From positions 1 to 62,218 of the forward strand of contig JACPGK010000020.1 in the NCBI GenBank assembly GCA_016182495.1: DNA of 62,218 bases, written 5' to 3'. Positions 11,516-26,513 of the stretch are shown here, piece by piece. This stretch comes from Candidatus Kerfeldbacteria bacterium. Lineage in GTDB: Bacteria; Patescibacteriota; Patescibacteriia; UBA9570. The notes under the pieces are model-generated. The model did no database searches. It worked only from the letters and a program-made list of their open reading frames with translations, and was not told the origin of the DNA. Within the stretch, counting starts at the first letter, position 1. Every line of letters begins with the position of its first letter. Position numbers and translations under genes: made by a program.

Positions 11516-11887
11516 ATGTTTTTAATTGACACTAATGTTTTGATCCTTGGCTTGGCAGGGAAAATGCCAGATGCCAAGTTTTTGCAACACGTCATAGAAG
11601 ATGAAACGTTCTGTCTCTCGGTTATTACAGTGGCGGAGTTTTTTACCCGAGCTTCGGGAGACGAGGAGAAAATTCTTGAAAAATTATTTCATGTTTTCCT
11701 ACCACTGGCTATTGATGAAAATGTGGCTAAACAAGCCGGTTGGTATAGAAAAAAATATTTTAAAAAAAGCCAAGCAAAACTGCCTGATTATTTTTTAGCT
11801 GCCCAAGCAAAAGTGTATCGTTGCACACTCGTGACTCATAATACTCGTGATTTTCCTATGAAAGATATTGAAATTGTTTCACCATAA
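11516..11887 (+). CDS. VapC-like PIN-domain toxin
   Basis: MFLIDTNVLI, LPDYFLAAQA, VTHNTRDF. Confidence 0.85.
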   Translation: MFLIDTNVLILGLAGKMPDAKFLQHVIEDETFCLSVITVAEFFTRASGDEEKILEKLFHVFLPLAIDENVAKQAGWYRKKYFKKSQAKLPDYFLAAQAKVYRCTLVTHNTRDFPMKDIEIVSP

Positions 11888-11910: not shown

Positions 11911-11939
11911 TTGACAAAAAAAATACTCTGCTTTATACT
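11911..11939 (+). promoter_or_regulatory. Aromatic operon promoter
   Basis: TTGACA 11911-11916, N17, TATACT 11934-11939. Confidence 0.85.
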
Positions 11940-11950
11940 TCGGTAACACT

Positions 11951-12034
11951 ATGAATAATTCGCACTCATTTAACTGGTACTGGTTTTATAAGCCGCTCCG
12001 ACAGGTGCTAGGGTTATTATTGTCCACACGCTAA
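11951..12034 (+). CDS. Aromatic operon leader peptide MNNSHSFNWYWFYKPLRQVLGLLLSTR
   Basis: 27-codon ORF with F-N-W-Y-W-F-Y run, 11 nt after -10, followed by attenuator hairpin and aromatic operon; absent from the ORF track. Confidence 0.88.
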   Translation: MNNSHSFNWYWFYKPLRQVLGLLLSTR

Positions 12035-12060
12035 ATCGCATTCATTCCAGTGCAATTACC

Positions 12061-12097
12061 CAGACCTTTCGGAGCTTTTCCGGAAGGTCTGTTTGTA
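12061..12097 (+). terminator. Attenuator terminator upstream of aroF
   Basis: CAGACCTTTCGG (12061-12072)/CCGGAAGGTCTG (12080-12091), 12 bp with one G-U, then TTTGTAT (weak U-tract). Confidence 0.7.
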
Positions 12098-12124
12098 TAG
12101 GCCTGGTATATTAATCACAATTTT

Positions 12125-13141
12125 ATGATCATCGTTATGCAAGAAAACTCACCTAAACAAGATGCCCTCAACGTGGTTGAACATGTACGGCAACTCGGCC
12201 TGCAGCCGGTGTTGTTAGAAGGTACCGAGCGCAATGTTATTGCCGTGATTGGTGATGAGCGCATTTTGGATGTGCCAGTGTTGAACGCCATGACCAGCGT
12301 AGAAAAAGTCATGCCAGTGCTAGCCCCGTTTAAACTAGCCTCGCGCGAACATGCCAAAACCAAAACGGTTATCACCGTTGCCCCTAACGTTAGCATCGGT
12401 GGAACTCGCCTGGCCATTATGGCCGGCAACTGTGCCGTGGAAACCTTGGATGTTTCCTTACGTACCGCTCAAGCTGTACAGCACGCTGGCGCTACCATTC
12501 AACGCGGTGGCGCTTTTAAACCACGCACCTCACCCTATTCATTTCAAGGTTTGGGTGAAGAAGGCCTATTTATTTTACGCGAGGTGAAAAAACAAACTGG
12601 CTTACCGATTATTACCGAAGTGCTCGACCCACGCCAAATTGAATTGGTCGCTGAACACGCTGATATTTTGCAAGTGGGCACACGCAATATGCAGAATTTT
12701 GAATTATTACGTGAGCTGGGTAATTGTGGTAAACCGGTGCTATTAAAACGTGGCATGGCTGCTACCCTTGATGAATTTTTAATGTCAGCTGAATATATTC
12801 TATCGAGTGGTAATCCTAATTTAATTCTGTGTGAGCGCGGTATTCGCACCTATGAAACCGCCACGCGCAATACTCTTGATATTTCTGCCATTCCCGTACT
12901 CAAAGTTAAAACGCACTTACCGGTAATTGTCGATCCATCCCATGCGGCCGGTAAGCGTGCCTATGTGGCTGCGCTCGCTAAAGCCGCCATTGCCGCCGGG
13001 GCGGATGGTTTATTGTTAGATGTGCACCCCGATCCGGCGCGGTCGTTAGTTGATGCCGATCAAGCCTTAAGTTTTGAACAGTTTGATGATTTAATGACAG
13101 ATATCACCTTAATTGCCCAAGCAGTTGATCGAACCATTTAG
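12125..13141 (+). CDS. aroF: 3-deoxy-7-phosphoheptulonate (DAHP) synthase, type I-beta
   Basis: N-terminal ferredoxin-like domain, [33 protein letters not shown]. Confidence 0.95.
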
Positions 13142-13142
13142 T

Positions 13143-14414
13143 ATGTTTTACCGTAAGTTTGTTCAATCGATTGATTATCAACCGGCCAGCACTGCTTTCC
13201 GCGCCTATAGCGAGGCGGTACCTGGCATTTTGTTTGAATCGGTTGATGTGGCGCCGATTTACGGTCGGAAGAATGTATGGTTTGTTGATCCAATTGTTGC
13301 CATTACCGAACAAGCTGGTGCTGTACAGTTCGAATCATTGCATCCGGCTGGCGATATTGTGCGTCAACAACTCACCCAATCCATTCCCACTTTGCGCAGT
13401 ATCTTTGAACAAATTCACACACCTGATCCATACTTTGGCCTGTATGGTCTGTTCAGTTATGATTACGTTCGTCGATTTGAAACTTTACCGGATTTGCATG
13501 CTCGCGGCACCGTGCCAGATTTTCAGTTGTATATTCCGGATGTTATTTTTGTGTATGATCATTTAAAAGAAACGGCCGAAGTGCATTACTATCAACTCAC
13601 CCAGCTCACCTTAGCGGAACGACTGCAACAATTACCTGAGCAAGCCCAGCAATATATGAAAATTGGGGACGTGTTCGAATTAGTACTATCGCGCCGGTTA
13701 ACTGGATCGTTTGCTGGTTCGGCCCTTGGTTTATACGATGCCTATCGCAACGTTAACCCTTCGCCGTATATGTTTTTTATTAGAACACCGCAGCGAACTA
13801 TAGTAGGAGCCTCACCCGAAATGTTTGTGCGAGTTGAAGATGGTGAAGTGATGACGCGTCCAATCTCTGGCACCGCTGCCCGCAGTATGGATCCCATTGC
13901 CGATTATGAACACATGCTTACCTTATTGAATAGTCCAAAAGAAAAAAGTGAACTTGATATGCTTATTGATTTAGCTCGTAATGATGTTGCTCGAGTATGT
14001 CAACCGGGCATTACAGTATCCGATTATCGTTACGTAGAAAAATATTCAAAAGTAATGCACACCATTGCCCAAGTAACTGGTCGGTTAGATACTAGCCAGT
14101 ATTTGGCCTTCGATGCACTGGTGGCCTGTTTGAATGCTGGCACCTTAACGGGTGCTCCTAAAATTAGAGCAATGGAACTGATTGAGCAGCTTGAACCAGA
14201 GCGGCGGGGTTGTTATGGTGGTTGCGTTGGGTATATCACGTTTAATAATGAATTGAATACTGGCATTACCATTCGGTCGGCCGTGATTGAAGATGCTACC
14301 ATCACTATTCAAGCTGGTGCTACTGTGTTGTATGATTCTAATCCAACCGCCGAGTTTACAGAAACCGAACATAAAGCGGCGGCTTTACTGCAGGCTGCCA
14401 CTGCTACCCTATGA
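13143..14414 (+). CDS. trpE: Anthranilate synthase component I
   Basis: RPISGTAARS, ELDMLIDLARNDVARV, GTLTGAPKIRAMELI. Confidence 0.92.
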   Translation: MFYRKFVQSIDYQPASTAFRAYSEAVPGILFESVDVAPIYGRKNVWFVDPIVAITEQAGAVQFESLHPAGDIVRQQLTQSIPTLRSIFEQIHTPDPYFGLYGLFSYDYVRRFETLPDLHARGTVPDFQLYIPDVIFVYDHLKETAEVHYYQLTQLTLAERLQQLPEQAQQYMKIGDVFELVLSRRLTGSFAGSALGLYDAYRNVNPSPYMFFIRTPQRTIVGASPEMFVRVEDGEVMTRPISGTAARSMDPIADYEHMLTLLNSPKEKSELDMLIDLARNDVARVCQPGITVSDYRYVEKYSKVMHTIAQVTGRLDTSQYLAFDALVACLNAGTLTGAPKIRAMELIEQLEPERRGCYGGCVGYITFNNELNTGITIRSAVIEDATITIQAGATVLYDSNPTAEFTETEHKAAALLQAATATL

Positions 14415-14998
14415 AACATGTTGTGATGATTGATAATTTTGATTCTTTCACTTTTAATTTGGTGGATTATTTTAAGCAAGGCGGTGTTCGTATTACTGTG
14501 CAACGCAATACTGCTGCAGTGAGCACGATTAAGCAACTCAAGCCCAACATGATAGTGTATTCTCCTGGGCCGGGTAACCCCAAGCAAGCTGGCAATTTGT
14601 TAAAATATATTGAATTTTTTAGCCAGCAGCTGGTGGTGCCACAATTTGGAGTGTGTTTAGGCTTACAGGCTATGATTGAGGCATTTGGTGGCAGTTTACG
14701 AGTACTGCCGCACCCCATCCACGGTAAAGCCTCATACATTCATCATCAGGGTGAGGGTATATTTCAATCGTTACCCAACCCGTTATTGGCCGGACGTTAC
14801 CATTCCTTAGCGGCTGAACATGTGCCGGCTGATTTTGACGTTACCGCCACGACCCAAGATGATCGTAATGGCGAAGTGGTCATGGCTATTCAACATCGAC
14901 ACCTGCCACTGGTTGGAGTGCAGTTTCATCCTGAATCAGTCTTAACTATGCACCATCAGGCCGGCCTGCATTTAATTCGTAATGTCATTGCTCAATGA
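14411..14998 (+). CDS. trpG: Anthranilate synthase glutamine amidotransferase
   Basis: GVCLGLQAM, VGVQFHPESVLT. Confidence 0.94.
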   Translation: MKHVVMIDNFDSFTFNLVDYFKQGGVRITVQRNTAAVSTIKQLKPNMIVYSPGPGNPKQAGNLLKYIEFFSQQLVVPQFGVCLGLQAMIEAFGGSLRVLPHPIHGKASYIHHQGEGIFQSLPNPLLAGRYHSLAAEHVPADFDVTATTQDDRNGEVVMAIQHRHLPLVGVQFHPESVLTMHHQAGLHLIRNVIAQ

Positions 14999-15010
14999 TG
15001 AACAATTTGT

Positions 15011-15997
15011 ATGAATAACATTATACAACAATTGCAACGTGGTGAAGATTTAACCATTGCTCAAGCCGAGCAGGTGATGGATCAATTAATGGCTGGTCAA
15101 ATTGAGGCCGTACCCATGGCTGCCATTTTAATGGGCCTAGCCACCAAAGGTGAAACCACCGATGAATTGGTCGGCATGTTACACAGTGTGCATAAACATA
15201 TGATCGCCCTAGATTTAGGCCAACCATTATTAGATACCTGTGGCACTGGTGGGGATCATGCCAACACCATTAATCTATCTACCATGGCAGCCTTGGTATG
15301 TGCGGCTCTGGGCGTATCAGTAGCGAAGCACGGCAATCGAGCGGTTAGTTCTCAATCGGGCAGCGCCGATGTACTGGCTGCTTTAGGTGTACCAATTGAT
15401 TTAACTGGCCAAGCTGCCCAGCAGTATTTTAAACAGCATCACTTTGTGTTTTTGTTTGCGCCGTTATATCACCCAGCTTTTAAACAGCTGGCTAGCGTTC
15501 GTAAACAATTGGGTATTCGTACCATTATGAACCTGCTTGGACCATTAGCTAATCCAGCTCGGGCCAGTCACCGCTTGTTAGGAGTAGCTGATTTGGGGCT
15601 AGCTGATATGCTGGGTCAAACCTTAATGGAATTGGGCGTTCAGCATGCCGTGGTAGTGCATAGTGCCGATAATTTAGATGAAGTAAGCATTGCTGCTCCT
15701 ACTACGGTATTTGATTTTACGCAACAGGGTAGCAATCGTTTTCGCATTGAACCCGATACGCCATTCAGGGTAGATGATATGGCCGGTGGCACGGCTAAAC
15801 ACAATGCCGCCGTCATTCGACAGTTAGCCGAAGGTAAAGCTAGCCGAGCAGTTATTACCGCGGTGGCAATGAACGCTGGGTTAGCCTTATATGCGGCCGA
15901 TCAGGCCACTAGTTACGAGGCAGGTAAAACCATGGCTGAACAGTGCTTACGCTCGCATACCTTTGGAGCGTATCTACAAAAACTGACACCACAATGA
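15011..15997 (+). CDS. trpD: Anthranilate phosphoribosyltransferase
   Basis: DTCGTGGDHANTINLSTMAA, KHGNRAVSSQSGSADVLAALG. Confidence 0.97.
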   Translation: MNNIIQQLQRGEDLTIAQAEQVMDQLMAGQIEAVPMAAILMGLATKGETTDELVGMLHSVHKHMIALDLGQPLLDTCGTGGDHANTINLSTMAALVCAALGVSVAKHGNRAVSSQSGSADVLAALGVPIDLTGQAAQQYFKQHHFVFLFAPLYHPAFKQLASVRKQLGIRTIMNLLGPLANPARASHRLLGVADLGLADMLGQTLMELGVQHAVVVHSADNLDEVSIAAPTTVFDFTQQGSNRFRIEPDTPFRVDDMAGGTAKHNAAVIRQLAEGKASRAVITAVAMNAGLALYAADQATSYEAGKTMAEQCLRSHTFGAYLQKLTPQ

Positions 15998-16728
15998 CCA
16001 TCCTTGATACTATTTACCAGTATAAACAGCACGAGCTGGACCAACAATTACAACCGCAGCGCGATTTTGCCGCAGCCTTACGCAGTGCTACCGGCCTAGC
16101 CGTGATTGCCGAATTTAAACAGGCCTCGCCCAGTGCCGGCATGATTCGTACCGGAGCAGTGCTGGCCAATATTGTCACCCAATATTATCAAGGTGGAGCC
16201 CGAGCCTTATCAATTTTAACTGACCAACATTTTTTTCAAGGCCAATTAGATTATATTAATCAAGCCAAACAAGCCGTACCGTTACCGGTGTTGCGCAAAG
16301 ATTTTATTTTTCATCCTTTTCAAGTATACGAAAGTAAATTGGCCGGCGCCGACGCTATTTTATTAATCGCTGCCAAGTTGACAGGGCCACAATTACAACA
16401 GCTGGTAGCGTTAGCCCATAGCCTGGGTTTACAAACCTTGGTTGAAATTCATACCACCACTGAAGTTGATCGAGCCATCGCCTGCCAACCAACCATGTTT
16501 GGAGTAAATGCCCGTAATTTACACACCATGATCATTGATTTGCATACCATCGCCCGGATTGTGCCATTACTGCCGAGCAGTAGTTTGATTGTGTTCGAAT
16601 CAGGTATTACCAGCCGAGCCGATGTAGCGTATGTTCGGCAAGCTGGTGTCAAGGCTATTTTGATTGGCACAACGTTAATGCAGGCCGAGCATCCACAATT
16701 GGCTTTAGAGCAATTGATTGAAGCATAA
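15994..16728 (+). CDS. trpC: Indole-3-glycerol phosphate synthase
   Basis: AEFKQASPSAGMI, LPVLRKDFIFHPFQVYE, GVNARNL. Confidence 0.95.
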   Translation: MTILDTIYQYKQHELDQQLQPQRDFAAALRSATGLAVIAEFKQASPSAGMIRTGAVLANIVTQYYQGGARALSILTDQHFFQGQLDYINQAKQAVPLPVLRKDFIFHPFQVYESKLAGADAILLIAAKLTGPQLQQLVALAHSLGLQTLVEIHTTTEVDRAIACQPTMFGVNARNLHTMIIDLHTIARIVPLLPSSSLIVFESGITSRADVAYVRQAGVKAILIGTTLMQAEHPQLALEQLIEA

Positions 16729-16732
16729 TGCT

Positions 16733-17371
16733 ATGTTGTTATATCCTCTAAAAATTTGTGGAATTACTAACGAAGCCGATGCTTTTTCGGCCGCTCAAGC
16801 TGGTGCCAGTTACTTGGGCTATATTTTAAATGCTCCAACCAGTCCACGCTATATTAGGGTTAATACGGCGGCTGCTATTATTAAGCGGGTGCGTCAAATT
16901 TATCCAGCAGTGAAACACGTTGGAGTATTTGTTGATGCTTCTTCGGCTGTGATGGATCAGGTTATCAGTCAATTACAGCTTGATGTTGTACAATTACACG
17001 GCCAGGAATCATTACAAGATATTGAACAACTGATTGCGCCAGTCATTTGGAAAACTGTTATTGTATCTACTCCGGACGATCTTCAGCAGCTTCATCTTTT
17101 TCAGCGTTCTTTAGCACGTTCAGCTTGCTCGGCGATTTTGTTAGATAGCGGCCAAGGGTCTGGCCAAACTATTGCCTCGACATTATTGGATCAGGTGACT
17201 GATTTTTCTACTATTATTTTAGCCGGCGGCATTACGCCTGATAATGTGACTGAACTGATCCAGCGTTATCATCCAGCTATTATCGATGTGAATAGTGGGG
17301 TAGAAGCTGTTCCTGGCAAAAAGGATATTTTTAAAATAAAACAATTAATCCAACGATTAAATCGTTTATGA
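16733..17371 (+). CDS. trpF: Phosphoribosylanthranilate isomerase
   Basis: LKICGIT, VQLHGQE, LAGGITPDNV. Confidence 0.93.
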   Translation: MLLYPLKICGITNEADAFSAAQAGASYLGYILNAPTSPRYIRVNTAAAIIKRVRQIYPAVKHVGVFVDASSAVMDQVISQLQLDVVQLHGQESLQDIEQLIAPVIWKTVIVSTPDDLQQLHLFQRSLARSACSAILLDSGQGSGQTIASTLLDQVTDFSTIILAGGITPDNVTELIQRYHPAIIDVNSGVEAVPGKKDIFKIKQLIQRLNRL

Positions 17372-18597
17372 AGAGCAGTATGAAAAAACTTTTTTTTAAA
17401 ACTCAATATGAGCCAGATGAGCACGGTCATTTTGGTGAATTTGGTGGCCAGTATGTACCAGAATTATTAATTCCAGCTCTAGAAGAATTAACTCAAGCCT
17501 ATGAACAGGCCAAGGCTGATCCAAGTTTTGTGGCGACTGTTCATGAGGTGTTTAAAAACTATGTTGGCCGACCATCACCGTTGTATTTTGCTGAACGCTT
17601 AACCAAGCAGTTAGGTGGCGCCAAAATTTTTTTAAAGAATGAAGGGCTCAATCATACCGGTGCGCATAAAATTAATCACTGCGTTGGGCAAGCCTTATTA
17701 GCCCAGCGGTTGGGTAAAACTCGTTTGATTGCCGAAACGGGGGCTGGTCAACATGGTGTCGCCACGGCCACGGTGGCCGCCAAGTTTGGTTTGCACTGTA
17801 CCGTGCATATGGGAGCAGTTGATGTACAGCGACAAGCGCCCAATGTATTTTGGATGCAACAGTTAGGCGCCGAAGTACGAGTGGTGCACGACGGTAGCCA
17901 AACTTTAAAAGATGCTGTCACCAGTGCCTTACAAGATTGGATGACCGACCCGATTGGTAGTTACTATTTACTTGGTTCAGCCCTGGGACCACATCCGTAT
18001 CCGGTAATGGTGCGGGATTTTCAAAGTATTATCGGTATCGAAGTGGCTGAACAATTTCAAGCCTATGAAGGCCAGGGATCCGTACCAGATTATTTGGTGG
18101 CGTGTGTTGGTGGTGGCAGCAATGCCATTGGTTTATTCAACGCTTTTTTGGATGATAAACAGGTGAAATTAATTGGCGTAGAAGCTGGTGGCCGTAACCC
18201 AAACCAAGTTGGCGAACATGCCACTCGGCTAGGGCGGCAACCCCAGGTAGGTGTGATTGAAGGCTATAAATCATTTTTTTTGCAAGATGACGATGGTAAT
18301 TTGCAACCAACCCACAGTGTGTCAGCTGGGTTAGATTATCCCGGCATTGGGCCAGAGCATGCCTATTTATATCAACAAGGTCGAGCCCAGTATGTAGCCG
18401 TGACTGATGTTCAAGCTGTGCAAGCCTTTCGGGCATTGGCCAACACCGAAGGTATTGTACCGGCTTTGGAATCGGCTCATGCGGTGGCCTATGCTATACA
18501 GTTAGCCCCCACCTTGCCACCGAAAAAAACCATCGTGGTGAATATTTCCGGGCGAGGGGATAAGGATTATTTTATTTTGCGGGAATTGATTCATTAA
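17368..18597 (+). CDS. trpB: Tryptophan synthase beta chain
   Basis: FGEFGGQYVPE, LNHTGAHKIN, CVGGGSNAIG. Confidence 0.97.
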   Translation: MKSSMKKLFFKTQYEPDEHGHFGEFGGQYVPELLIPALEELTQAYEQAKADPSFVATVHEVFKNYVGRPSPLYFAERLTKQLGGAKIFLKNEGLNHTGAHKINHCVGQALLAQRLGKTRLIAETGAGQHGVATATVAAKFGLHCTVHMGAVDVQRQAPNVFWMQQLGAEVRVVHDGSQTLKDAVTSALQDWMTDPIGSYYLLGSALGPHPYPVMVRDFQSIIGIEVAEQFQAYEGQGSVPDYLVACVGGGSNAIGLFNAFLDDKQVKLIGVEAGGRNPNQVGEHATRLGRQPQVGVIEGYKSFFLQDDDGNLQPTHSVSAGLDYPGIGPEHAYLYQQGRAQYVAVTDVQAVQAFRALANTEGIVPALESAHAVAYAIQLAPTLPPKKTIVVNISGRGDKDYFILRELIH

Positions 18598-18600
18598 ATT

Positions 18601-19374
18601 ATGTCCCGCACCATTTCCGAACAACTTACCATCATCAAACAACAGCACCGCCTTGGTGTAATGACGCACGTGGTGATGGGCTACCCATCGCTGCATGAAA
18701 CCAAACAACGCGTACTAGCGATGGCGGCGGCTGGCGTTGATAGTATTGAATTACAAATTCCATTCTCGGATCCGTTAGCCGATGGCCCAGCCATTACTAA
18801 GGCTAATCAGCAAGCTTTAGCCGCCGGTGTTACTGTACAGCAGTGTTTACAGCTGGCTGAACAACTCACCAGAGCAGTTGATATCCCTTTACAATGTATT
18901 GGGTACTATAATACGATCCATCATTTTGGCGTACAACAATTTGTGCAGGCTAGCCAAGCAGCTGGTATTCAAGGATTCACCATTCCTGATATGCCACTCA
19001 CTGAAGAGCCCTATGAACATTTTTATGCTTTGGCCGCCCAAGCTAACCTGCCAGTAATTCAACTGATTTCACCAGCTACTCCTATTGAACGTTTACGCTT
19101 GATCAATCAGCACGCCCAGGCCATGGTGTACTGTGTCAGTCGCTTTGGTGTCACCGGCGCTCACACCACCTTACCAGATCATCTCATCACCTACCTACGC
19201 ACGGTTCGGCAATATGTTACACTACCATTAGCGGTTGGCTTTGGTATTTCAACGCCCAAACATATTCGCGCTCTGCATGGGCTAGCCGATGTGGCCGTGA
19301 TTGGCAGTGCGTTATTGAATGTGTCACTCGAAAATTTAACACAACAATTAACTAACTTATGCGCCGAACGGTAA
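18601..19374 (+). CDS. trpA: Tryptophan synthase alpha chain
   Basis: IELQIPFSDPLADGPAI. Confidence 0.95.
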   Translation: MSRTISEQLTIIKQQHRLGVMTHVVMGYPSLHETKQRVLAMAAAGVDSIELQIPFSDPLADGPAITKANQQALAAGVTVQQCLQLAEQLTRAVDIPLQCIGYYNTIHHFGVQQFVQASQAAGIQGFTIPDMPLTEEPYEHFYALAAQANLPVIQLISPATPIERLRLINQHAQAMVYCVSRFGVTGAHTTLPDHLITYLRTVRQYVTLPLAVGFGISTPKHIRALHGLADVAVIGSALLNVSLENLTQQLTNLCAER

Positions 19375-20375
19375 CAACCAACCAGCAAAGTTATCCAGTA
19401 ATTATTCAAACCGGCAGCAGCGAACGGTTCAATTTTTCCACACCAGCGGTGGTCGTGTGTGATCGTCAGGTGCAACGGTCGTATCCTAAACTATTGCCGC
19501 AATATCGCCGTGTTATATTGCCAGATGGCGAGGCCAACAAACGTTTACGTACCATTGAGTGGTTGTGCTTGCGGCTACTCAAATTAGGCTGTGATCGTTC
19601 AACTAGTCTGATCGGTATTGGTGGCGGGGTGGTAGGTGATATGGTTGGTTTTACTGCCGCTGTGTTTATGCGCGGGGTGCCGTATTATCACGTACCAACG
19701 ACCTTGTTAGCCATGGTTGATTCTAGTATTGGCGGCAAAACAGGTGTTGACCTTAGCCTTGGTAAAAATTTGATTGGTACTACCTATCAACCAATGGCCG
19801 TAATTAGTGACCCACGGTTTTTATTAACCTTATCGGCTGAACAATTTAGTAATGGCCTAGCCGAGGTGATTAAGCATGCTGTGCTGGAACCAAGCCTGCT
19901 TAGCTGGATCGAACAACACCGTAGTCAAATTCAGCGGCGACACCTGCCAACCTTACAACAGCTGATTAGTCGTAATGTTGAAATTAAAGCCGCTATTGTG
20001 GCGGCCGATGAGCACGAAACTTTACAACGGATGCTATTGAATTTGGGCCATACCTTTGGTCATGCCTTCGAAAAATTAAGTCGCTATACCATACCGCATG
20101 GCCAAGCGGTGGCGATTGGTTTAATGTATGCCATGAGCTACACTGCTATGCCGCAGCATCAGCGGGTGGCCAAATTATTACAGCAGTTCGATTTGCCAAT
20201 TCGTTTGCCCCGGCCGTATTCTCCCCGGGCCATTGTACAGGCGATGCACCATGATAAAAAACATCGCGGTAACTATATTACTCTGGTTGTGCCATTACAG
20301 CTTGGTCATGTGCGCATTGATCAAACGGTCACACCAGCTCACTTGCTACGCTTTTTGCAGCACTACCATGGCTAA
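19359..20375 (+). CDS. aroB: 3-dehydroquinate synthase
   Basis: GIGGGVVGDMVGFTAAVFMRGVPYYHVPTTLLAMVDSSIGGKTG. Confidence 0.96.
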   Translation: MRRTVTTNQQSYPVIIQTGSSERFNFSTPAVVVCDRQVQRSYPKLLPQYRRVILPDGEANKRLRTIEWLCLRLLKLGCDRSTSLIGIGGGVVGDMVGFTAAVFMRGVPYYHVPTTLLAMVDSSIGGKTGVDLSLGKNLIGTTYQPMAVISDPRFLLTLSAEQFSNGLAEVIKHAVLEPSLLSWIEQHRSQIQRRHLPTLQQLISRNVEIKAAIVAADEHETLQRMLLNLGHTFGHAFEKLSRYTIPHGQAVAIGLMYAMSYTAMPQHQRVAKLLQQFDLPIRLPRPYSPRAIVQAMHHDKKHRGNYITLVVPLQLGHVRIDQTVTPAHLLRFLQHYHG

Positions 20376-21951
20376 GCCAATTAAATACACTGTTACGGTA
20401 CCTGGTTCAAAATCATTTATGAATCGGGCTTTAATTTGTGCCGCCCTAGCCAAGGGTCAATCAACGTTATTGAATCCCGTGTATTGTGATGATACCAATT
20501 ACATGATTAAAGCCTTGCGGGCTTTAGGCGTGCACATTAATACCACGGCTCGGCAGGTGACAATTCGCGGCCTGAACGGAAAATTCAAACTACCCAAACC
20601 GGGGCGTGGTACACGGCGAATTTATATAGGCAATGCCGGCACGGTGATACGTTTTTTAACACCACTGCTGCCAGCCGGTACAAGGTTGGTTGGTAATCAG
20701 CGTATGCAGCAACGCCCGTTGCAGGAATTAATTGAGGCAGTGGCACAGATCAAACACGACAATCACATAACTATTACTGGTACAGTCAGCAGTCAATTTA
20801 TTTCGGCGCTTTTATTAGTTGCACCCACACTGCCACACGGCTTAACGATTATGGTGAAAGGTAAATTGGTATCAGCTCCGTATGTTCAAATGACTTTAGC
20901 CGTGATGCATCAATTTGGCATTAAAGTTACAAGGCGCAATGATCAATTTACAATTTATAAACAAGACTACCAAGCAAACAACTATACCATTGAAGGCGAT
21001 GCCAGCAGCGCCACCTACTGGTGGGCACTGGCCGCCATCACCGGTAGTCATATCACTGTGCCGAATATTCCATTGGATACTCTACAACCTGACGCAAAAT
21101 TTAAACAGTTATTAGAAAAAATGGGTTGCACAGTGAAGGCTAATACGGTGATTGGTCCATGGAATAAAGCACTCAAACCGATGACAGTGAATATGTCCGA
21201 TTATCCTGATGCGGTTTTAGCTGCGGCCGTAGTGATGACACAAGCCAGCGGTAGAAGCACCATTACCGGGATTGGTCATTTAACTCATAAAGAAACTGAT
21301 CGATTGACATTGTTAAAAAAAAATTTACGGAAATTAAAATCAACACACCCAATTGTCATTGATACTGGTGCTGATCATCGGTTCGCGATGGCGTTCAGTA
21401 TTTTAGGTTTAGCTATTGGTAAGATCACTGTGGATAATAAACAGTGCGTCAAAAAAAGTTATCCAACATTTTGGTCTGATTTTAAAAAGGTTGAACAACA
21501 AGTCAAACGTCAAACCATCGTGCTCACCGGCCTGCGCGGCGTGGGTAAAACCACCTATGGTAAAATATTAGCCAAGCAATTCAAGATGAAATTTGTTGAT
21601 ACGGATACGATGATGGGTAAAAATATTTCCACATTGGTTCAGCAACACGGTTGGAAACAGTTTCGCAATCAGGAACATGTTGTGGTCAAACAAATGTGTA
21701 AGAAAAAAAATGCGATTATCGCAACGGGCGGTGGCACATTAATGTATCCACGTAATTTCACAGTATTAAAAGAGCACTATATTATCTTATTAACGGCACC
21801 ACTGGCTGTGATAAGACAGCGCTTATCAAAACAATCACATCGTCCAGCTTTGCTGAAACGTCAGACTGTTGTGACTGAATTAAATCAGGTTTGGCAACAA
21901 CGCAAAAATAAATACTATCAAATAGCCGACAATATCTATGATAGCCGTTAG
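20368..21951 (+). CDS. aroA-aroK: EPSP synthase - shikimate kinase fusion
   Basis: EPSPS motifs VPGSKSFMNRA, GNAGTVIRFLT, RMQQRP, DASSATY; C-terminal kinase GLRGVGKTTYGK, ATGGGTL; ATG 20368 overlaps aroB stop. Confidence 0.93.
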   Translation: MAKPIKYTVTVPGSKSFMNRALICAALAKGQSTLLNPVYCDDTNYMIKALRALGVHINTTARQVTIRGLNGKFKLPKPGRGTRRIYIGNAGTVIRFLTPLLPAGTRLVGNQRMQQRPLQELIEAVAQIKHDNHITITGTVSSQFISALLLVAPTLPHGLTIMVKGKLVSAPYVQMTLAVMHQFGIKVTRRNDQFTIYKQDYQANNYTIEGDASSATYWWALAAITGSHITVPNIPLDTLQPDAKFKQLLEKMGCTVKANTVIGPWNKALKPMTVNMSDYPDAVLAAAVVMTQASGRSTITGIGHLTHKETDRLTLLKKNLRKLKSTHPIVIDTGADHRFAMAFSILGLAIGKITVDNKQCVKKSYPTFWSDFKKVEQQVKRQTIVLTGLRGVGKTTYGKILAKQFKMKFVDTDTMMGKNISTLVQQHGWKQFRNQEHVVVKQMCKKKNAIIATGGGTLMYPRNFTVLKEHYIILLTAPLAVIRQRLSKQSHRPALLKRQTVVTELNQVWQQRKNKYYQIADNIYDSR

Positions 21952-23137
21952 TCTAACGCGCCCCCAAGATTATCAACAAGCCTTACGTAGTGGGGCAGAT
22001 TATGTAGAGTTGCGTACGGATTATTTTACCGATCAACAACTCAAACACTTTGTGGAACATAGCACGTTGCCCGTGATCTACACCATCAAACGTCCCACAG
22101 CTTATTTACCCAAGGTTGCCTATGTAGACATAGATGATCAATCCAAACAACATCTTTCAGGAAAAGTTATTCGGTCTTTTCATGATTATAAACGCACTCC
22201 CCATTTTTCAACATTAAATCAGCTGGTGCAGAGCATCTTAAAACAAAAATCAATTCCAAAAATTGCTACGCACGTTCAGACAGTAGCTGATCTTTATACG
22301 TTAGCCAGACTGCAAAAGAAATATGGTAAAAAGATTATTGTGGTTGGCATGGGCGAATTAGGCATGATGACCAGAGTGTATAACAAAAGTTTATTGACGT
22401 ATGCTAGCGTTTCTAGAGCTGCCACTACAGCCACCGGACAGTTAACGATGAAGGAAATGAAGACCACTCAACTATTTGGTTTAGTTGGTGATGCTATCCA
22501 ACATAGTTTAAGTCCAAAGCTGCATCAGCAGTTTTATCGGCAAAAGCATTTACCGTATGATTATCAATTATGGGAAACAGTTGATTTGGCAAAGATGATG
22601 TTTGTGTTTGATTTTTTTGAACTACCAGGTGCGTCGGTAACCAAGCCATTCAAACGTCAGGTGATGCAGTATTGTGATCAGATTGATCGGCATGCCAAAA
22701 AAATTGGGGCAGTCAATACGGTAGTGCGCCGGGGCAACACGTTGCTTGGTTATAATACCGATTGGCTTGGTGTACAAAACAGTATTGGTCGTTACCTAAC
22801 AGGTAAACGAGTGTTGATACTAGGTAGAGGTGGCACAGCCAAAGCCATAGCTTATGCCGCCAAACAAGCTGGATCAAAAAAAATAACCATGCTGGGTCAT
22901 CAACAATTACCAACTAGCACAACTGATTATGATGTTGTCGTGAATGCTACTCCAGTAGGTGATCAATTATTAGTGCCAGCCAATAGTTTAAAAGGTAAAG
23001 TGGTGATGGATTGTATTTATGGTCAGCAGACTGAATTATTGAAACAGGCCAGGTATAATGGTGCCAAGGTTGTGCTCGATGGCCTGCCTATGTTACGGTA
23101 TCAAGCAACAGAACAGTTTAGATTAATGAAAGTTTGA
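21938..23137 (+). CDS. aroD-aroE: Type I 3-dehydroquinate dehydratase - shikimate dehydrogenase fusion
   Basis: VELRTDYF, RSFHDYKRTP, KIATHVQ; then SLSPKLH, GASVTKPFK, GAVNTVV, NTDWLG. Confidence 0.92.
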   Translation: MIAVSLTRPQDYQQALRSGADYVELRTDYFTDQQLKHFVEHSTLPVIYTIKRPTAYLPKVAYVDIDDQSKQHLSGKVIRSFHDYKRTPHFSTLNQLVQSILKQKSIPKIATHVQTVADLYTLARLQKKYGKKIIVVGMGELGMMTRVYNKSLLTYASVSRAATTATGQLTMKEMKTTQLFGLVGDAIQHSLSPKLHQQFYRQKHLPYDYQLWETVDLAKMMFVFDFFELPGASVTKPFKRQVMQYCDQIDRHAKKIGAVNTVVRRGNTLLGYNTDWLGVQNSIGRYLTGKRVLILGRGGTAKAIAYAAKQAGSKKITMLGHQQLPTSTTDYDVVVNATPVGDQLLVPANSLKGKVVMDCIYGQQTELLKQARYNGAKVVLDGLPMLRYQATEQFRLMKV

Positions 23138-23140
23138 ATT

Positions 23141-24115
23141 ATGCCCGGTAATACCTTTGGAACAATTTTTCGCTTAACTACTTGGGGTGAATCTCATGGT
23201 GTTGCTATTGGCGGAGTAATAGATGGCTGCCCGGCTGACATTGCTTTATGTGCAGCTGATATTCAAAAAGATCTCGATCGCCGTAAGCCTGGTCAAAGCA
23301 GTATTACCAGTGCTCGCAAGGAACCTGATACAGTGCAAATTTTGTCTGGCGTGTTTCAGGGCAAAACTACCGGTACGCCAATTAGTCTGATTATGTACAA
23401 TCAAGATCAACGCTCCAAAGATTACGAAAAGCTAGTATACAAATATCGTCCTGGTCATGCTGATGAAGTATACGATTTGAAATATGGCTGGCGTGATTAT
23501 CGTGGCGGTGGGCGAGCCAGTGCCCGTGAAACGGCTATCCGTGTAGCCGCTGGCGCCATTGCCAAAAAAATCTTGCCCCGAAAAACCGCAGTGATTGCCT
23601 ACACCAAACAAATTCAAGATTTAGTTGTCACCACACCAAAATTGAATCAGATTGAACAAAACACCGTGCGTGCAGCTGATAACGTCATTGCCAAAAAAAT
23701 GGTGGCACTGATTAAAACGGCTATGCGCCAACAGGATTCGTTAGGCGGTGTGATTGAAATTGTAATCAAACATTGCCCGATAGGATTAGGCGAACCGGTA
23801 TTTGATAAATTGAAAGCCGATTTGGCCAAAGCTTTATTAAGTATCAATGCTGTAGTCGGATTTGAATATGGCGCTGGCTTTGGCGTGGCGCAGTTGTACG
23901 GTTCAGAACATAATAAAATTGAAGTGGGGATGTATGGCGGTATTTCGAATGGAAAAACGATAACTATGCGTGTGGCGGTGAAACCAACTTCATCCATAAA
24001 AATAGGCGGCCGGCACGATCCATGTTTATTGCCGCGGGCTGTGCCAATTTGTGAAGCCATGGTTAATGTGGTGTTAGCGGATCATTATTTACGGAATGCC
24101 ACTGCTACCGTATGA
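23141..24115 (+). CDS. aroC: Chorismate synthase
   Basis: [37 protein letters not shown]. Confidence 0.97.
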
Positions 24116-24669
24116 TCATAGCCGTAGCCGGTAATCAGGGCAGTTTTTCACATCAAGCTGGGCAATTGTATGCCACTGGCCAGCAATTGGCTGATGTTCA
24201 GTTTGTGTATGCTATTGATAGCGCTGGAGTGTTTGCCGCTGTACAAACTGGTGCGGCCGAATTAGGCATTATGCCCTTGTATAATCCCACGGGCGGAATA
24301 GTGCAAATGACACTGCAAGCTATGGGTGAACATCGTTTCAAAACTGTGGCTTCGTTCACTATGCCGGTGCAACACTGTTTGCTGTGCTTACCCAATGTGC
24401 GGCCCGATGAACTAAAAACTATTGTGTCGCACGAACAAGCCTTGGCCCAATGTCGGCAGTATGTCGATGTGAATTGGCCAGAGTGTCAGTTGCAACCCTA
24501 TAGCGATACTGCTCAAGCCGCTGCTGATTTAGCTGCTGGTAAATTTGCGCTGGAAACAGCTGTGTTGGCTCCAAAAATGTGCGTGGAATTATATGGTTTG
24601 CGCTTGATTGCCGAAGGGGTGCAAGATGATAAAAGTAATGGAACGGTGTTTATAGTGATTGGCTCATAA
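24112..24669 (+). CDS. pheA: Prephenate dehydratase, catalytic domain only (no ACT domain)
   Basis: 185 aa; [11 protein letters not shown]-terminal NGTVFIVI in place of canonical NxTRF. Confidence 0.82.
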
Positions 24670-24672
24670 TGT

Positions 24673-25629
24673 ATGAACATAGCAATAATAGGCGCTGGTC
24701 GTTTCGGCACAGTATTACAAAAACATTTATCAACGGATAATGATGTGGTGATGGTAGGAGTAGAGTATCATTCTGCCCTTACCTCGGAATTATCGGAATG
24801 CAACCTAATCATTTTTGCGGTACCCAATCGTGCCTTGGCTGAAGCGGTTCAACAATGGAAACCGTTGATATCTGATACAGCCATTATTATGGATGTTGGT
24901 TCAGTCAAACTGTTGCCCTGCCAAATTTTATTAGAAGCTTTTCCCGAGCATAATGTCATCGGTACGCATCCATTATTCGGACCCGACAGTGCAGCTGAAT
25001 CATGGGACGGTCAAAAAATGGTGTGGTGTAAATTACACTGTGCCGACGATATCTATAACAATGTCCAAACATTATTTACCAGCCGTGGTGTTACTACTAT
25101 TGAAACTACACCGGAACAGCACGATCACATGATGGCGCAAACTCAAGCTCTGGTTCATTTTATTGGCCGGGCACTAACCGGTTTACAACCTCAAACTATT
25201 GCCACACCCGATTACGCTAATTTACTGCGCATGATGGAAAAAGTGACCAATGATACCTGGGAGTTATTTTATGATATGCAAAATTTAAATCCGTATACCA
25301 AACCGGTGCGGCAAGAATTTATAAAAAATATTGAAAAGTTGGAACAGGAGATTAAGAAAGAAAGCCAGGGTGAAAAATCGATTAATGAAATCCGTTCCCA
25401 AATAGATACTATCGATGAACAGATTGTGGCCCTGGTGGGGGAGCGGTTCAAATTGGCGCAACAGATTGGGCAACGTAAAAAAGATATTCAAGCTGACGTT
25501 CAAGACCCAAAACGCGAAACTGAATTATATTTGCGCATGCACCAGTTATCGCAACAATACCAGGTGCCGTTAGAAGTGGTGACACATCTCTATGATTATT
25601 TAATGGATCAAGCTCGCCGGATGCAATAA
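24673..25629 (+). CDS. tyrA: Prephenate dehydrogenase with C-terminal AroQ-type chorismate mutase
   Basis: N-terminal Rossmann IGAGRFGTVL, GTHPLFGPD; C-terminal INEIRSQIDTIDEQIVALVGERFKLAQQIGQRKK. Confidence 0.9.
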   Translation: MNIAIIGAGRFGTVLQKHLSTDNDVVMVGVEYHSALTSELSECNLIIFAVPNRALAEAVQQWKPLISDTAIIMDVGSVKLLPCQILLEAFPEHNVIGTHPLFGPDSAAESWDGQKMVWCKLHCADDIYNNVQTLFTSRGVTTIETTPEQHDHMMAQTQALVHFIGRALTGLQPQTIATPDYANLLRMMEKVTNDTWELFYDMQNLNPYTKPVRQEFIKNIEKLEQEIKKESQGEKSINEIRSQIDTIDEQIVALVGERFKLAQQIGQRKKDIQADVQDPKRETELYLRMHQLSQQYQVPLEVVTHLYDYLMDQARRMQ

Positions 25630-25635
25630 TTGCTC

Positions 25636-25664
25636 TTGACATGAAAATACTGTATTAGTACACT
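25636..25664 (+). promoter_or_regulatory. Promoter TTGACA-N17-TACACT
   Basis: TTGACA 25636-25641; TACACT 25659-25664. Confidence 0.75.
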
Positions 25665-25675
25665 ACTATTAACTT

Positions 25676-25783
25676 ATGCATCAACTAGCCGTTTGTGTAA
25701 CCTTTAACTGGAACCTCCGCAAGGTAGGTACTATTAATATTACAGTTAGCCAGCGGGTTAAAACGGACTATGCTCATGCTTAA
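25676..25783 (+). CDS. Putative third leader peptide MHQLAVCVTFNWNLRKVGTINITVSQRVKTDYAHA
   Basis: 35-codon ORF, 11 nt after -10; 3' part contains the antiterminator arm. Confidence 0.55.
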   Translation: MHQLAVCVTFNWNLRKVGTINITVSQRVKTDYAHA

Positions 25784-25843
25784 GTAAACAGAGTAGCTAG
25801 TAGAGAATAACCGTTTTAACCCGCTGACCAGCGGGATTTTTTT
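25751..25843 (+). promoter_or_regulatory. Overlapping antiterminator/terminator (attenuator-like)
   Basis: CAGCGGGTTAAAACGG (25751-25766) pairs perfectly with CCGTTTTAACCCGCTG (25811-25826); competing terminator CCCGCT-GACC-AGCGGG + ATTTTTTT (25820-25843). Confidence 0.8.
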
Positions 25844-26024
25844 GAAGTTCAATCCGCCCTTTGTCAATTAGGAGGAAGTATAGGCAACGTAGTATAAACC
25901 GGGAGTGAGATAAGGTCACTATTATTATATTGGCTTTATTCCACTCCCGGTTGGCAGACAAAGACTGTCCTGCCGGGAAAGCCGGGTACACACTTCACCG
26001 TGCGTGCCCACCGGAGAACGACCC

Positions 26025-26325
26025 CATGACCCCTGAGAAGTACCTGCAGCGCAAGACCATCGCTCGAACCAACAAGCTCCTCCGCCTGGCCTGGCTGGAG
26101 CTCAACGCTCCGCTCAAGTTCCAGTTCAAGGTCCAGGGCTGGAAGTCCGAGATCATGAAGCTGGCGGAGCTGGTCGGTTCGGGTATCACGTTCGAAGATG
26201 TTCGAGTGTTCGCTGTGCAGGTGGGAGTGAACGTGGAGGAGGTGCTCTCGCACCCCTTCCCGTGGGCCCCCAAGCCCACCCCCCGCCGGCCGCCGCACGA
26301 CTGCTACGACTATTCGAACATCTGA
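26025..26325 (+). CDS. GC-rich hypothetical protein
   Basis: MTPEKYLQRKTIART...; GC-ending codon usage unlike neighbours; GGAG upstream of ATG. Confidence 0.6.
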
Positions 26326-26335
26326 TATTTAAATA

Positions 26336-26513
26336 GCGCATTCAGCGCGGAAGGTTGTAGGGGTATTAGGCCCTGCATGTGGAATCATCCACAAGGCAAC
26401 CCTGTTTAACGACCTCCCCCGGACTACGTTGCCTACCTTCTTGTGTGAAGAACTTAACCCTAGAGGTGACGAGGTTCTGCATACAAACCAGGTAAACATT
26501 CCGGCTTCACAAC
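26336..26513 (+). ncRNA. Candidate structured RNA with a four-way junction
   Basis: GAAGGT 26350-26355/ACCTTC 26435-26440; GTAGGG 26357-26362/CCCTGC 26371-26376; TGTGGA 26378-26383/TCCACA 26388-26393; AGGCAAC 26394-26400/GTTGCCT 26428-26434; second domain GTGAAG 26445-26450/CTTCAC 26505-26510. Confidence 0.55.

Follow-up and report, generated by a model that had tools for sequence, protein, structure and literature searches.

How is the synthesis of all three aromatic amino acids controlled from a single operon in bacteria about which little beyond genome sequences is known? The question is raised by a contig of 62,218 nucleotides (hereafter, the window) from a Candidatus Kerfeldbacteria bacterium (GCA_016182495.1, JACPGK010000020.1), one of the 38 contigs of a 1.3-Mb genome that is 96% complete.

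Operon, promoter and leader ORF

The window contains a 13.5-kb aro/trp/phe/tyr operon of 14 genes, beginning with DAHP synthase, for which the closest named relative (81% identical) was found in a Candidatus Kerfeldbacteria genome. The gene content attributed to the operon in an earlier note on this DNA was borne out (Table 1); pheA encodes prephenate dehydratase, and the tyrA fusion encodes a prephenate dehydrogenase-chorismate mutase. The gene order is identical at loci L166 and L167, where the contigs are long enough.

A promoter, a leader ORF and a 13-pair hairpin all lie in the interval from a PIN-domain gene, the end of which is at 11886, to the DAHP synthase gene, which begins at 12125. 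The cluster of Phe, Trp and Tyr codons described earlier (FNWYWFY) was found at 11969-11989, and every coordinate of the earlier note was correct on rechecking. Of the 1540 short ORFs on the two strands of the window, none but the leader ORF has a run of seven residues with six or more aromatic ones. A short ORF rich in codons for the products of the biosynthetic genes that follow it is the mark of a leader-peptide attenuator, and counterparts were identified at L015, L016, L017, L008, L106 and other loci. The -10 element lies 11 nt from the ATG; the distance is 8-11 nt in all four members of the family (the window and three genomes searched). Of the 14 Patescibacteria leaders, 11 have a spacing of 5-11 nt. 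The 5' UTR of the leader mRNA is therefore predicted to be only a few nucleotides long, with a near-leaderless translation start.

Table 1. Coordinates of the leader, its pairing arms and the operon in the window.
Feature	Position	Strand	Basis or remarks
Predicted sigma70-type promoter, TTGACA-17 nt-TATACT	11911-11939	+	Sequence; spacing kept in relatives
Leader peptide ORF, MNNSHSFNWYWFYKPLRQVLGLLLSTR	11951-12034	+	ATG 11951, stop 12032-12034, 27 codons; counterparts in relatives
Aromatic control codons TTT AAC TGG TAC TGG TTT TAT (F N W Y W F Y)	11969-11989	+	Reading, folding
B, antiterminator left arm, GCTCCGACAGGTG	11995-12007 (core; weaker pairing to ~12028)	+	Inside leader ORF
C, arm common to antiterminator (right) and terminator (left)	12061-12075	+	Pairing
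D, terminator right arm, B-like, TCCGGAAGGTCTG	12079-12091	+	Pairing
Predicted intrinsic terminator, weak U tract TTTGTATA	12061-12099	+	Hairpin 12061-12091
Operon: DAHP synthase, trpEGDCFBA, aroB, aroA-K fusion, aroD-E fusion, aroC, pheA, tyrA-chorismate mutase fusion	12125-25629	+	Predicted to be regulated

Antiterminator and terminator

The pairing reported earlier between GCTCCGACAGGT (11995-12006) and ACCTTTCGGAGC (12064-12075), which overlaps the left arm of the terminator, was reproduced with 11 pairs in 12 positions. The B:C pairing (B taken as 11994-12028) had an energy of -28.7 kcal/mol, compared with -15.2 ± 3.0 kcal/mol for dinucleotide shuffles, none of 300 being as good. The terminator hairpin comprises 13 pairs (-20.8 kcal/mol), and its tail TTTGTATA is indeed weak, as the earlier note had cautioned. 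Antiterminator and intrinsic terminator share arm C and are mutually exclusive, as in an attenuator.

A scan of the whole genome (1.30 Mb) returned 930 terminator-like sites, five of which were outstanding (z < -4 and 0/50 shuffles as good); the aromatic leader ranked second among these five. In a control set of 127 natural terminators, eight had 0/100 shuffles as good, and these included two aromatic leaders (window, L167) and three instances of a second element downstream of the aro operon (see below). The arrangement of leader, B:C and terminator in the window is not due to chance.

Conservation in relatives and other lineages

The leader, B:C and terminator were present in all four family genomes, each with the DAHP synthase of the operon, and the leader peptides of the other three are MNNTQQYFSWFWYTMLRRVRVFSVVND, MTTQHNYFDFYWFTKLRKVLDISVS and MIHLNKNFWFYFSYIQLRKVCAFDVS. 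Relatives that carry the operon and lack the peptide or hairpins, which the earlier note had named as evidence against attenuation, were absent from this set. In samples of the class and phylum, ten further Patescibacteria have an aromatic leader ahead of the DAHP synthase gene, and 19-45 nt separate its stop codon from a terminator (example blocks: NYFWFYF in L008, KFYTYFWY in L106, NFWYFYF in L132), and a planctomycete (L033) has the aromatic leader YFAYFWF with a terminator. Phe, Trp and Tyr are all present in 13/14 Patescibacteria leaders, L143 having no Trp. Many other DAHP synthase genes of Patescibacteria have no aromatic leader nearby; the leader is thus widespread, not universal. A link between Trp codons in the leader and trp genes in the operon was considered and dropped, as Trp-containing leaders also occur where trp genes were not found. 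DAHP synthase serves all three aromatic pathways.

The B:C pairing outperformed 300/300 shuffles in the window, L015, L016, L017, L008, L106, L033, L132 and L037. It was weaker in L124, L126, L140, L143, L061, L063 and L075 (1-12/300 shuffles as good), weaker still in L073 (18/300), and not significant by the same test (300 shuffles) in L127, L128, L133, L042 and L079. The Lachnospiraceae leader L042 and L079 had been tried as cases of the same layout and, having failed the test, are not claimed as such. The letters of B and C are unrelated to those of the window in L008 (GTTTGGGAGATTTGTCG), L106 and L033, and in L106 the two arms form a helix of 22 nt in which, by eye, about two positions are mismatched. 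Members of the family differ at the pair next to CTCCG, which is A-U in the window and L015 and G-C in L017, both sides having changed. B:C is kept as a pairing, not as a sequence. The codon block, B:C and terminator are maintained in independent lineages while the sequence changes, which supports the earlier proposal of ribosome-mediated attenuation with a Phe/Trp/Tyr leader; covariation of leader and hairpins was a check that the same note had suggested.

The same genome contains a Thr leader. L236 1506-1565 codes for the leader MIDRSIQITTTTTTTTSGG, with eight Thr codons, behind a TTGACA-17-TAAACT promoter of the same spacing as that of the aromatic leader, and the whole element spans L236 1506-1627 (G000:C21 ~101506-101627). 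The B:C/terminator pair has a z-score of -6.3. The genes that follow encode aspartokinase-homoserine dehydrogenase, aspartate-semialdehyde dehydrogenase (asd) and threonine synthase; the thrA behind this leader was absent from the relatives. This independent match between leader codons and pathway strongly supports the attenuation reading.

Folding with a ribosome on the leader

Each leader was folded with the ribosome footprint blocked, codon by codon. In RNA that does not yet include D, B:C dominated without a ribosome or with a ribosome in the aromatic block (0.91 in the window), and fell after the ribosome had passed this block (0.29-0.33 at K14-L16). Stalls at F7-F12 left B free, and the Phe, Trp and Tyr codons all fall within the stretch in which a stalled ribosome leaves B free. 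In blocked-footprint folding, a ribosome stalled at the control codons leaves the antiterminator arm open, and one that moves on covers it; in the window this holds only for RNA before D. In the finished RNA of four leaders, the antiterminator gave way to the terminator where the aromatic block ends: L016 (F13/T14), L017 (Y14), L106 (A12) and L008 (T18). In the finished leader of the window, the terminator was favoured at equilibrium at every ribosome position, so antitermination there could only be kinetic. In several leaders, B re-paired when the ribosome stood on the stop codon, in a model without hindrance from the ribosome inside the B:C loop. The timing of release would therefore matter and would set the basal level, as has been described for trp (PMC1183508).

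Proposed mechanism and alternatives

The computed results comprise the parts and how they are conserved, pairings that exclude each other, and the position of the switch. We consider these results to be best explained (probability of roughly 0.85) by a ribosome-mediated transcription attenuator of two-state layout that senses a shortage of any aromatic amino acid. RNA polymerase would start a few nucleotides before the leader ATG, followed by a ribosome translating the leader ORF. With Phe-, Trp- or Tyr-tRNA in short supply, translation would stall within the F-N-W-Y-W-F-Y block, before B is reached. Arm B would then pair with the emerging C, presumably as the kinetically dominant pairing in this species, D would be left partnerless and transcription would enter the operon. 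When all three tRNAs are plentiful, the ribosome would advance over B as far as the stop codon, B:C would be blocked, and the C:D terminator would form and probably end transcription in vivo. The sensor logic would be an OR over Phe, Trp and Tyr, with a response expected for each. Covariance models found no riboswitch, T-box or Rfam leader family match in the leader region; an Rfam snoRNA match to the leader (E 0.95) was judged to be due to chance.

In a classical four-segment attenuator of the trpL type, polymerase and ribosome are kept in step by a 1:2 pause hairpin, and segment 2 is masked by a ribosome that has reached the stop codon. In RNA that ends before C, B can pair with upstream leader sequence in the window (P 0.57 vs 0.21 shuffled) and in L017 (0.80 vs 0.25); however, this hairpin was not above background in L015 (0.08 vs 0.19 shuffled) and was near background in L016, L008, L106 and L033. 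The stop codon is downstream of B in all family members. With neither a conserved 1:2 hairpin nor a stop before segment 2, the trpL subtype is unlikely, and the earlier description of an antiterminator arm inside the ORF, in a layout other than that of textbook trpL, was upheld.

It is considerably less probable that there is no regulation at all, with the hairpin acting as a plain terminator of the PIN-domain gene that precedes it and the ORF remaining untranslated. A near-consensus promoter separates that gene from the hairpin, and the codon block, B:C and terminator are kept together where the upstream sequence differs. We give the least credence to the nascent peptide as sensor, arresting the ribosome through an LRKV motif in the manner of TnaC or erm leaders. 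While LR(K/Q/R)V is common to the four family peptides, LRKV is the translation of B, itself constrained by pairing; moreover, L008, L106, L033 and others have the same architecture without the motif.

Beyond the window, we lean slightly towards the view that the two-state attenuator is widespread in Patescibacteria, with a near-leaderless peptide sensing Phe, Trp and Tyr, an ORF-internal antiterminator arm and readthrough as the default without translation, opposite to trpL. If true, the Patescibacteria radiation would thereby gain its first described case of amino-acid-sensing attenuation, along with evidence for transcription-translation coupling in these bacteria.

Comparison with known systems

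The ilv and thr leaders of E. coli sense more than one amino acid. The E. coli trpL and pheL leaders each respond to one main amino acid and have an antiterminator arm past the stop codon, a 1:2 hairpin and a Shine-Dalgarno start. The window leader has in common with them the control codons in a leader ORF and the antiterminator and terminator with a common arm (trp attenuation is outlined in PMC1183508), but differs in having B inside the ORF, codons for three aromatic amino acids, a predicted near-leaderless start and no conserved 1:2 hairpin. The trpL leader of S. meliloti is leaderless, its ORF being at the 5' end of the transcript (PMC7298713), and resembles the window in its start; however, it is specific to Trp and to trp genes.

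According to the accounts of Neshat et al. 2014 given in PMC11802643 and PMC4046766, the AroR leader before aroF in C. glutamicum has a Phe-Tyr-Phe sequence and acts in attenuation by ribosome stalling. It shares with the window leader more than one kind of aromatic codon before DAHP synthase and ribosome-stalling attenuation, which is proposed here, but in these accounts it has no Trp and a response reported under Phe limitation, and it belongs to another phylum. Given AroR and the E. coli ilv and thr leaders, the sensing of more than one amino acid by a leader is not new. The uORFC-13-1 motif that precedes aroF in Acholeplasma, represented by 24 sequences and noted to have Phe codons, is likewise a predicted uORF plus terminator before DAHP synthase; in contrast to the window leader it has an RBS, and it is limited to Acholeplasma and environmental sequences (PMC8632094). 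Phe/Tyr leaders before DAHP synthase are already on record, and the window leader is a variant of known attenuation. Apart from the atypical ermC leader, the demonstrated leader-peptide systems known to Naville and Gautheret in 2010 all came from Proteobacteria and Actinobacteria, and they added one in bacilli. No earlier report of a leader-peptide attenuator in Patescibacteria was found in the open-access full-text literature, the single paper retrieved being on another topic as judged from title and abstract; this is not proof of absence.

The locus provides a concrete example of amino-acid sensing, open to experiment, in a lineage for which there is little to go on except genomes. A working attenuator needs tight coupling of ribosome and polymerase, which is difficult to examine by other means in uncultured bacteria with small genomes. 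The OR sensor for three amino acids, on one operon making all three, would put multivalent attenuation to the test. From the ORF-internal arm, the phenotype of a start-codon mutant is predicted to be opposite to that of trpL.

Other elements

Directly after the operon, at 25636-25842 of the window, a second attenuator-like element was noted, with the promoter TTGACA-17-TACACT and a near-leaderless ORF (25676-25783, MHQLAVCVTFNWNLRKVGTINITVSQRVKTDYAHA) whose internal B arm pairs with a terminator arm (z -6 to -9). In L166 (near 16209) and L167 (near 16577), the matching place is likewise occupied by an ORF, a B arm and a terminator, with different peptides. The stretch 25872-26445 of the window is GC-rich with a long closing stem (TAGGCAACGTAGT...ACTACGTTGCCTA), has a fold z-score of -8.0 and matched nothing in Rfam or Pfam. 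In L166 and L167, too, the second element is followed by GC-rich stretches.

Phe/Tyr-rich leaders with strong terminators were also seen upstream of DAHP synthase in Blautia, Anaerostipes and other Clostridia-type genomes (L042, L051, L054, L063, L064, L073, L080; peptides such as SYFYYCFLGFY and CFYFRGFYFYP), and similar leaders, MRRFFxGRYFFYGGDDPA, precede DAHP synthase in L079 and L084. An Rfam scan gave no leader family match for L042, L063, L073 and L079. A second DAHP synthase copy, L170 (G583:C8), adjoins trpF and trpB-trpA and contains an in-frame TGA, which may reflect a broken gene or TGA reassignment.
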